A DNA stretch of 64,000 nt, taken from positions 1 to 64,000 of the forward strand of contig NZ_AULF01000016.1 of NCBI RefSeq assembly GCF_000425145.1. Reading direction: 5' to 3'. A program made the translations under genes and the position numbers. Below the pieces are notes generated by a model. It made no database searches, had not been told where the DNA came from, and saw nothing but the letters and a program-made list of their open reading frames with translations. How positions within the stretch are numbered: position 1 is the stretch's first letter; every line of letters begins with the position of its first letter. Below, piece after piece: positions 28,177 to 30,378 of the stretch. Source of the stretch: Pedobacter glucosidilyticus DSM 23534. GTDB taxonomy: Bacteria; Bacteroidota; Bacteroidia; Sphingobacteriales; Sphingobacteriaceae.

Positions 28177-28365
28177 TTACATAGCAGCAGCAGTATCAAC
28201 AGCAACTGAATCAGCAGCAACTGTATCAACAGCAGCAGTGTCAACTACAACAGAATCAGTAACAACTGAATCAGTTGCTTCTTCAGCTGGTTTGTTAGAG
28301 TTACAAGCAACTACTGATAAAGAGATAGCTAAAGCAAAAAATCCGAATTTTAATAAATTTTTCAT
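28177..28365 (-). CDS. Small acidic lipoprotein with Val-Asp-Thr/Ser repeats
   Basis: This 62-residue protein has a full lipoprotein signal (MKNLLKFGFFALAISLSVVAC, lipobox Cys21) followed by a low-complexity acidic tail. Variants of D(S/T)V and DTAAV repeat about every five residues (TDSVV, VDTAAVDT, VAVDTAAAM). There are no catalytic features. Small abundant lipoproteins of this shape exist in Bacteroidota and may act as spacers in the cell envelope, but no function is established. It has its own promoter box and a strong terminator, so it is likely expressed well as a single gene. Confidence 0.75.
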   Translation of the reverse strand: MKNLLKFGFFALAISLSVVACNSNKPAEEATDSVVTDSVVVDTAAVDTVAADSVAVDTAAAM

Positions 28366-28410
28366 GTTAATTTCTTTTTTTAATTTTTGATAATTTAATC
28401 GTTAATACTG

Positions 28411-28418
28411 CAAAGGTA
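28411..28418 (-). promoter_or_regulatory. -7 box for the small lipoprotein (TACCTTTG)
   Basis: Perfect minus-strand TAnnTTTG, about 45 nt upstream of the ATG. No clear TTTG lies at -33. Confidence 0.55.
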
Positions 28419-28705
28419 AAAAGGTAACCCGATTTTTAAATATTTTTTTAATAAAAAAAGAAAAATCACGCTAAGTGCTAATAAATCAGGGTTTTTATTG
28501 CGAAAATAATTTTTAGAAATACTTTAACTAAATGATTAGGTCTTATTTTGTATTTATATTTTTAAGAATAGCTTGTAGTTTTTCAGCATTATCCTCATCT
28601 AAAACTTATAGTGCATTATTGTTTCAGATGTTCTTTATATTTTAATTGGCTAAAAGTTTTTTTTTACCAACTTTGGGTTACAATTTCGTTTAAATCGTAT
28701 TAACA
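28419..28705. other. Intergenic stretch before the sigma factor gene
   Basis: About 290 AT-rich bases without an open frame. CTTTGGG at about 28671-28677 lies near the sigma gene, but no matching TAnnTTTG box was found, so a promoter recognised by an alternative sigma factor is possible. Confidence 0.35.
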
Positions 28706-29284
28706 TTGAATAAAAAGATAAATCATTCGAAGCCAACAGATAGTGAAATTATTTTAGGTATTCTGAATAATTCATCTTCCATTTTAAAGCATTTGTATCT
28801 GGCATATTTTCCCATGATACTACAACTTGTTATCAATAACAATGGTGATGAGGACGATGCTAAAGATATTTATCAGGAGGCAATTATTGTGTTGCATGGT
28901 AAAATTAAAAGTGGAGATTTTGAATTAAGTAGTAAACTAAAAACTTTTATATACTCTGTTTGCAGAAGATTATGGTTAAAGAAGTTAAGTCAGAAAAGTA
29001 GATTTAGCGGCGATATTAAAGATTATGAGGATTATATTCCGGTAGAGCAGGAGATAGAACATCATCAAGAAAAGGATAGACAATTTGCGATGATGCATAC
29101 TGCGCTTAAAGATTTAGGAGAGCCGTGTAAAACTATTATTGAAGATTTTTATATACATAACCGTTCTATGCAAGAAATCTGCGAAAAATTTGGTTATACC
29201 AATGCAGATAATGCTAAAACGCAAAAGTATAAGTGTTTACAACGATTGAAAAAATTATTTTTTAATCAAAAAAATGAAAAATGA
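28706..29284 (+). CDS. ECF-type RNA polymerase sigma factor
   Basis: The 192-residue protein has sigma region 2 (DAKDIYQEAIIVLHGKI, then LKTFIYSVCRRLWLKKL) and region 4 (ALKDLGEPCKTIIEDFYIHNRSMQEICEKFG, ending in a helix-turn-helix with KTQKYKCLQRLKKL). Region 3 is absent, as in ECF factors. No ATG exists near the N-terminus, so TTG 28706 is taken as start; the next Met, 36 residues in, would cut into region 2. Its stop overlaps the start of the next gene (ATGA), meaning translational coupling with a membrane protein that probably controls it. Confidence 0.85.
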   Translation: MNKKINHSKPTDSEIILGILNNSSSILKHLYLAYFPMILQLVINNNGDEDDAKDIYQEAIIVLHGKIKSGDFELSSKLKTFIYSVCRRLWLKKLSQKSRFSGDIKDYEDYIPVEQEIEHHQEKDRQFAMMHTALKDLGEPCKTIIEDFYIHNRSMQEICEKFGYTNADNAKTQKYKCLQRLKKLFFNQKNEK

Positions 29285-30378
29285 ACAGTGAGTTAGCATT
29301 GATTAAAAGAATTGAAGCCTACCTGTATCAGGAAATGTCTGATGAGGAGATGATGCAATTTGAGCAGGAGAGAGCAGAGCAGCCAGATTTGGATAGCAAA
29401 GTAATCGCCCATTTGGATTTCTTAAAATCATTAAAAGGTTATGGCGAGGTTCAGGAACTAAAATCATCCATGGATAGTTTCCATAACGAGCTGGATATTG
29501 TTTCTTTAAAAGAAGAATTGCAGGAAAAGGAATCAGCATTTGTGTTATACTTCAGGAAATATCAAAGAAACTTTGCTGTGGCTGCATCGGTAGCTATTTT
29601 AGCTACTTTGATAACTCTTATATCTACCGGACAGTTTAGAAAATCTGGTAACTCCTCTACCTATAATGCATTAAAGAGAGATATGGAGTCTATCAAAAAA
29701 TCTCAAAATGCTCTGATTAGAAATATCAACTCTAAATCTCCTAATAAAGAAATAGCACCTAGCCAGTTTGGTGGTACAGGTTTCGCACTATCATCAAATG
29801 GTTATTTGGTTACCAACTATCATGTTGTACAGGGGGCAGATTCTGTTTATATCCAAAACAATAAAGGTGAGTCTTTTAAAGTGCAAACTATTTATATAGA
29901 CCCTTCTTATGATATTGCCATTTTACAAATTGTAGATCCGCTGTTTGAGTCATTATCACCTTTGCCTTATACCTTTAAAAAGTCATCTTCAGATTTAGGT
30001 GAAGATGTTTATACTATTGGATATCCTAGAGATGAGGTAGTTTATGGAAAAGGTTATTTAAGTGCGCAAACTGGTTTTGGTGGAGATTCTATTGCTTATC
30101 AAGTTTCTATACCGGTTAATCCGGGTAACTCTGGAGGTCCTTTAATGGATAATAGAGGAAACGTAATTGGTGTTATTAGTGGTAAACAAACTCAGGTTGA
30201 TGGTGCTGCATTCGCCATAAAATCAGATTATTTGTTGAAAGCGATAGAAAATATCCCTCAGGATTCTTTGAAGAAAAAGCTTAAAATAAACTCTAAAAAT
30301 AGCTTAGCATCATTTAATAGAACACAGCAAATTAAAAAGATGCAAGATTATATTTTTATGGTTAAGGTATATAATTAA
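29281..30378 (+). CDS. Membrane-anchored anti-sigma-like protein fused to a trypsin-like protease
   Basis: This 365-residue protein has three parts. Residues 1-95 are acidic and helical (IEAYLYQEMSDEEMMQFEQE, LDSKVIAHLDFLKSL), resembling the cytoplasmic domain of Bacteroidota anti-sigma proteins. Residues 98-116 form one membrane helix. A short coiled coil (about 127-150) leads to an S1C/HtrA-type protease domain (about 160-320) with a full triad: His181 in TNYHVVQ, Asp211 in YDIAIL and Ser284 in NPGNSGGPL. There is no PDZ domain. The protease would face the periplasm and the N-terminus would hold the co-encoded sigma factor. That topology and role are inferred from order, charge and coupling, not shown. 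Confidence 0.78.
   Translation: MNSELALIKRIEAYLYQEMSDEEMMQFEQERAEQPDLDSKVIAHLDFLKSLKGYGEVQELKSSMDSFHNELDIVSLKEELQEKESAFVLYFRKYQRNFAVAASVAILATLITLISTGQFRKSGNSSTYNALKRDMESIKKSQNALIRNINSKSPNKEIAPSQFGGTGFALSSNGYLVTNYHVVQGADSVYIQNNKGESFKVQTIYIDPSYDIAILQIVDPLFESLSPLPYTFKKSSSDLGEDVYTIGYPRDEVVYGKGYLSAQTGFGGDSIAYQVSIPVNPGNSGGPLMDNRGNVIGVISGKQTQVDGAAFAIKSDYLLKAIENIPQDSLKKKLKINSKNSLASFNRTQQIKKMQDYIFMVKVYN

Follow-up and report, generated by a model that had tools for sequence, protein, structure and literature searches.

Locus, sigma factor and promoter

The window analysed here is a stretch of 64,000 nucleotides from Pedobacter glucosidilyticus DSM 23534 (contig NZ_AULF01000016.1, positions 1 to 64,000), and the subject is a pair of adjoining genes on its forward strand. 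The first encodes an extracytoplasmic function (ECF) sigma factor (28706..29284, + strand, 192 aa) and the second an anti-sigma-like membrane protein with a predicted periplasmic S1C protease (29281..30378, + strand, 365 aa), the latter characterized by family profiles, AlphaFold2 and Foldseek. Together the two genes form a conserved module found in hundreds of Bacteroidota genomes. The sigma gene is the direct upstream neighbor of the protease gene at every locus with enough upstream sequence to be read (247 loci, 181 distinct pairs), and three further full-length copies are either cut at contig ends (L057 and L135) or have their promoter on another contig (L196). An earlier note, made from the sequence alone, had interpreted the locus as a sigma/anti-sigma-like pair with a fused periplasmic protease and an autoregulated sigma gene. 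The constant linkage, the invariant catalytic triad, an N-in/C-out charge bias, an invariant XAA motif in the membrane helix and the promoter described below support this part of its interpretation, and its suggestion that the protease could cleave itself or a partner is still a prediction. Its statement that the sigma gene has no standard promoter box does not stand. A divergent lipoprotein gene that shares the sigma promoter motif was absent from its account of the locus.

Almost all sampled genomes of the family Sphingobacteriaceae carry a full-length copy of the membrane protein. Across the order Sphingobacteriales a copy occurs in 393 of 401 genomes and is single in all but one, and full-length copies are present in roughly a dozen families of the class. 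Outside the class, no match in the phylum sample spans the whole protein. The 365-residue protein itself is 100% identical in a metagenome-assembled genome that also bears the name Pedobacter glucosidilyticus.

The sigma factor is matched by the NCBIfam model TIGR02937 (sigma70-ECF) over residues 27-183 of its 192 (1.4e-20) and by the Pfam model Sigma70_r2 (2e-7). It consists of sigma2 and sigma4 regions only, without sigma1.1 or sigma3, as in ECF sigma factors; the sigma4 region is diverged, and the Pfam sigma4 models stay below threshold on this protein. The TTG start and the ATGA in which the sigma-gene TGA overlaps the ATG of the membrane protein gene were both read correctly in the earlier note. 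The non-ATG start is common to the family, in which the first in-frame start is GTG in 125 cases, ATG in 34 and TTG in 20. The 4-nt overlap is found in only 22 of the 181 pairs, with the remainder spaced by -86 to +133 nt.

A conserved ECF-type promoter, GGGTTAC-N15-GTATTAA, lies directly upstream of the sigma gene (28675..28703, + strand). The same arrangement, GGGTTAC (or AGGTTAC) followed by GTATTAA or a close variant, precedes the sigma gene in 179 of 180 loci, with a spacer of 15 bases in 160 and 16 bases in 19; L152 is the sole locus that fails the promoter scan. The exact motif occurs twice in the 4.02-Mb genome, both times within 28402-28703, compared with no control matches and 0 expected by shuffling the window. 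Among 121 genomes of the family, which are not independent events because the module parts are adjacent and the genomes related, the motif is present in 108 and missing from 13, and those 13 are exactly the genomes without the sigma-protease pair (Fisher 1e-17). The same 13 genomes (G007, G008, G010, G023, G024, G032, G033, G043, G049, G060, G070, G080 and G1077) also lack the lipoprotein. Most of them are small (1.3-2.4 Mb), and the pattern suggests that the module was lost as a whole.

A promoter motif that is nearly exclusive to this locus argues for autoregulation of the sigma gene, and the module appears, from motif occurrence, to control mainly itself and the adjacent tiny lipoprotein. 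The -10 box of the sigma promoter ends 2 nt before the TTG start (28696-28708, + strand), and the start follows the box by 2-3 nt in 121 loci. This spacing suggests a leaderless or nearly leaderless sigma mRNA, which may in turn account for the conserved GTG/TTG start.

Architecture of the membrane protein

The AlphaFold2 model of the 365-residue protein, built on an alignment of 80 rows, begins with helices at residues 2-15, 21-33, 35-70 and 73-80, followed by a long helix (86-115) that contains the membrane segment. Beyond it, a helix predicted at low confidence (127-148) leads to a trypsin fold (162-323), and the chain closes with one helix and one strand. The model agrees with the order of parts that had been read from the sequence (acidic helical N-terminus, one membrane helix, coiled coil, protease) except for confidence in the coiled coil, where the predicted local distance difference test score (pLDDT) is only about 40-50.

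Residues 1-85 (29281..29535, + strand) form a four-helix domain that resembles class I anti-sigma domains (ASDI). When the N-terminal 90 residues are folded alone, AlphaFold2 again returns four helices with a pLDDT of 86. The N-termini of relatives were scanned singly against family models, and the zf-HC2 anti-sigma model PF13490 matches 49 of 78 with a best value of 1.6e-4, while two other anti-sigma models, NF052375 and PRK13920 (putative anti-sigmaE), match 11 and 7. All of these matches are weak, and anti-sigma models are nonetheless the commonest family matches of the N-terminus. A Foldseek search with the N-terminal model returns eight PDB matches, four of which are RslA or RskA, with RslA best and RskA fourth. 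The gene also adjoins its sigma gene in all 181 distinct pairs, as expected for a class I anti-sigma factor. Each test is weak taken singly, and together they make it likely that residues 1-85 are a class I anti-sigma domain. Known ASDI factors (RskA, RslA, RsiW and ChrR) likewise have a three-helix bundle and a further helix ahead of a membrane helix, whereas the N-terminus here is of a non-zinc type and very diverged in sequence. Only 6% of Bacteroidetes ECF sigma factors were reported beside an ASDI (PMC7406223).

The single membrane helix occupies residues 98-115 (29572..29625, + strand). Its N-side flank carries a mean of 3.2 K/R and 0.2 D/E, compared with 1.2 and 0.9 on the C-side, and this charge bias predicts a periplasmic location for the protease, in agreement with the signal-peptide-like N-termini of relatives that have no sigma gene. 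On the cytoplasmic side of the helix lies an XAA motif, VAA (residues 100-102; 29578..29586, + strand), whose alanines A101 and A102 are the sole membrane-helix residues invariant in all 181 proteins; X is V in 124, I in 48 and otherwise L, A, M or F. In RsgI anti-sigma factors, XAA ends are recognized by ClpXP and the fragments degraded (PMC12203970). As a sequence feature only, a single N-in membrane helix with XAA matches what is expected of a substrate of regulated intramembrane proteolysis (RIP). One M50 site-2 protease candidate is encoded in this genome. The helix is followed by a periplasmic linker (residues 116-160; 29626..29760, + strand), which contains the low-confidence helix 127-148, is the least conserved stretch of the protein and is a candidate region for a site-1 cut.

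The protease domain spans residues 161-325 (29761..30255, + strand). Trypsin_2 matches residues 165-298 in Pfam with a value of 3.9e-25, and DegP-, MarP-, HhoA- and DegS-type models also match in NCBIfam. The triad named in the earlier note, His181 (29821-29823), Asp211 (29911-29913) and Ser284 (30130-30132), is complete and does not vary among the 181 distinct relatives, and with the trypsin fold and a GNSGG sequence it identifies the domain as S1C. The nearest Foldseek matches are HhoA, MucD, HtrA1 and DegS-deltaPDZ, the last of these among the top five. No PDZ domain is matched in Pfam or NCBIfam, as had also been noticed before, and the model ends instead in one helix (347-357) and one strand (358-364). 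This conserved C-terminal unit (residues 347-365, ..QDYIFMVKVYN; 30319..30375, + strand) was considered as a DegS-type activating peptide by virtue of its VKVY(N) tail, and was set aside because secreted relatives without a sigma gene carry a similar tail.

Proposed mechanism and alternatives

These features are read as a self-contained RIP switch, in which an anti-sigma factor carries its own probable site-1 protease. The reading is given a probability of about 0.5, with sigma binding, self-cleavage, the site-2 protease and ClpXP steps, promoter recognition and the signal all being predicted. In the resting state, the ECF sigma factor would be tethered to the inner membrane through residues 1-85, and the protease domain would lie in the periplasm. 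An envelope signal, plausibly linked with the small lipoprotein or with the biogenesis of the outer membrane, would activate the S1C domain. As a built-in site-1 protease, this domain would then cut the flexible linker (residues 116-160 or so) either in its own subunit or in a neighboring one. Next, the site-2 protease, for which this genome has one M50 homologue, would cut the membrane helix and expose a (V/I)AA end, and ClpXP would degrade the anti-sigma fragment to free the sigma factor. The free sigma factor would read GGGTTAC-N15/16-GTATTAA and switch on its own operon together with the tiny lipoprotein encoded divergently; extra lipoproteins and a secreted DUF4294 protein would join these targets in many relatives.

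The logic is that of the RseA/DegS/RseP/sigma-E pathway of E. coli, which likewise joins an ECF sigma factor, a membrane anti-sigma factor, an S1C site-1 protease, a site-2 protease and ClpXP (PMC10202637), with the steps here being predicted. DegS is a separate, PDZ-gated protein, whereas here the protease is fused to the anti-sigma-like protein and has no PDZ domain. RseP of E. coli is reported to need the site-1 cut before it cleaves RseA efficiently, and its PDZ domains have been proposed as a size filter that keeps out bulky substrates (PMC10202637). By the same filter, the ectodomain of about 200 residues would probably have to be removed before site-2 cleavage, and we infer, as the simplest reading, that the attached protease makes this cut. 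No RseB-like partner is apparent at the locus.

As the chief predicted output of the switch, the lipoprotein is an obvious candidate for a feedback role, whether as ligand, substrate or competitor. A broader proposal, offered tentatively and itself somewhat doubtful, is that the one protein senses stress, acts as the anti-sigma factor and supplies its own site-1 activity, with cleavage within or between subunits starting RIP. The regulon would then comprise almost only the module and tiny lipoproteins that feed back on the protease, giving a stand-alone envelope homeostat.

Several observations weigh against the self-contained switch. For the N-terminal domain, the Foldseek E-values are 5 or worse and none is significant, and a search of PDB sequences with the N-terminal profile returns no anti-sigma factor, only chance-like matches (SUMO, PPAR-delta). 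Mean-field direct coupling analysis of the sigma factor and its partner, performed on 181 pairs (effective number about 104) with the periplasmic part as the internal control, places 17 of the top 50 sigma couplings in residues 1-85 compared with 25% expected; this is slightly above expectation, comes from too few effective sequences and is not used as evidence. All three results would suit a model in which the domain does not inhibit the sigma factor and the two genes are co-expressed for some other reason, for example if the sigma factor simply drives a membrane protease. That model is regarded as very improbable, given that anti-sigma families dominate the weak N-terminal matches, that one copy is paired with one sigma factor and that the membrane helix is of the RIP type.

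Downstream of the membrane helix, no conserved cleavage site is evident in linker residues 116-160, and the protease has no PDZ domain that would gate it. The first of these observations fits a classical RIP pathway with an outside site-1 protease, in which the N-terminus is still the anti-sigma factor and XAA the end generated for the site-2 protease and ClpXP, and the fused S1C domain is a sensor or gate that binds, for example, a peptide or lipoprotein. The closest precedent, RsgI9 of Clostridium thermocellum, points the same way. Its S1C-NTF2 structure (PDB 7sjy) is a clear structural match to the protease domain (Foldseek rank 21, E 1.7e-11), and its S1C-like ectodomain is able to bind polysaccharide and is thought to be a ligand-binding unit (PMC12203970). 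Like the protein here, RsgI9 combines an anti-sigma part in the cytoplasm with an S1C-fold ectodomain, and its one membrane helix bears an XAA motif (IAA). It differs in belonging to the SigI/RsgI class, in being an orphan with no paired sigma gene, in having an NTF2 domain, in autocleavage by its own periplasmic region and in polysaccharide binding. The protein here has an ECF sigma partner, lacks the NTF2 part and, within its own family, strictly keeps the triad; no RsgI match is found in the Pfam or NCBIfam scans of the two proteins. A triad invariant in 181 of 181 relatives is hard to explain by binding alone, and an outside site-1 protease is considered rather unlikely.

Secreted Bacteroidota S1C proteases (L172-L182 and L193) have the protease domain and the helix-strand tail in common with the protein here and differ in their N-terminal parts, which are signal-peptide-like and varied, and MORN repeats occur in two of the four that were scanned. 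A sigma gene of this type was not found near any of these relatives, so the domain can serve otherwise. Their existence would suit a bifunctional protein, whose N-terminus controls the sigma factor and whose tethered protease is a separate envelope quality-control enzyme, acting for example on small lipoproteins or secreted proteins, with sigma release independent of catalysis. The lipoprotein tails, which look unstructured and are rich in Ala, Val, Thr and Ser, are also what an HtrA substrate might offer. The strict covalent and operon link across the class and the invariant XAA nevertheless favor a sigma factor set free by proteolysis, and a bifunctional protein is judged unlikely.

RsgI9 already provides an example of an anti-sigma factor with an S1C-type domain. 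The literature searched, which mostly did not include subscription papers or the large ECF reclassification paper, yielded no description of the pair, the motif or the lipoprotein, nor did it mention an ECF-type anti-sigma protein that bears a catalytically conserved S1C domain, the promoter of such a protein or a coupling to tiny lipoproteins. Well-studied RIP pathways keep the anti-sigma factor and the site-1 protease as separate proteins, whereas here a single chain combines the two. Nearly all sampled genomes of one order carry the module, which also extends to several further families of the class. How ECF sigma factors are regulated in Bacteroidetes is poorly explained, and the module offers a compact, testable case whose promoter motif is defined, whose predicted regulon is very small and whose protease has one active-site serine. 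If correct, the proposal would also assign a role to the small lipoproteins and give a clue to DUF4294, on which no literature account was found.

Small lipoproteins and other predicted targets

The second exact copy of the motif, on the opposite strand (28402..28430, - strand), is the predicted promoter of a gene for a small lipoprotein of 62 aa (28177..28365, - strand). The protein has a signal, a lipobox (SVVAC) and a tail of D/S/T/A/V residues in low-complexity repeats such as VDTAAVDTVAADSVAVDT. The same layout, with motif and small lipoprotein divergent to the sigma gene, is found in 115 of the 121 loci that have at least 900 bases upstream. The lipoprotein is conserved across the family and beyond. 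All 10 tested genomes that carry the pair have it, and none of the 13 that lack the pair does. These small lipoproteins have a median length of 65 residues, and their tails contain 19.5% Ala, 18.6% Thr, 11.6% Asp, 11.1% Ser and 9.5% Val with scarcely any aromatics. Their C-termini were considered as PDZ ligands, an idea that was rejected because the final residue is mostly K, M, H or Q and the protease lacks a PDZ domain. Tandem arrays of up to three small lipoprotein paralogues (L326-L332), in which every gene has a GGGTTAC promoter of its own, occur in genomes of Mucilaginibacter type and in others. In one genome (L340), the motif precedes a lipoprotein of about 281 residues that is DUF4349-like in appearance.

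Extra copies of the motif precede a gene for a secreted DUF4294 protein in several genera (L333-L335, L337, L342, L306, L308 and L314), with the family assignment confirmed by Pfam for L333. A search for further regulon members among two-mismatch motif matches in the P. glucosidilyticus genome gave 35 matches, a number close to the 28 of the control, and only the DUF4294 site is backed by relatives. That site is degenerate (GGGTTAC-N15-GTAATTA) and ends 28 bases before the ATG of the DUF4294 gene (L276 and L352; contig C2 near 196457-197119), which is followed by glutathione peroxidase-like and BshB-type deacetylase-like genes, as judged from their sequences.
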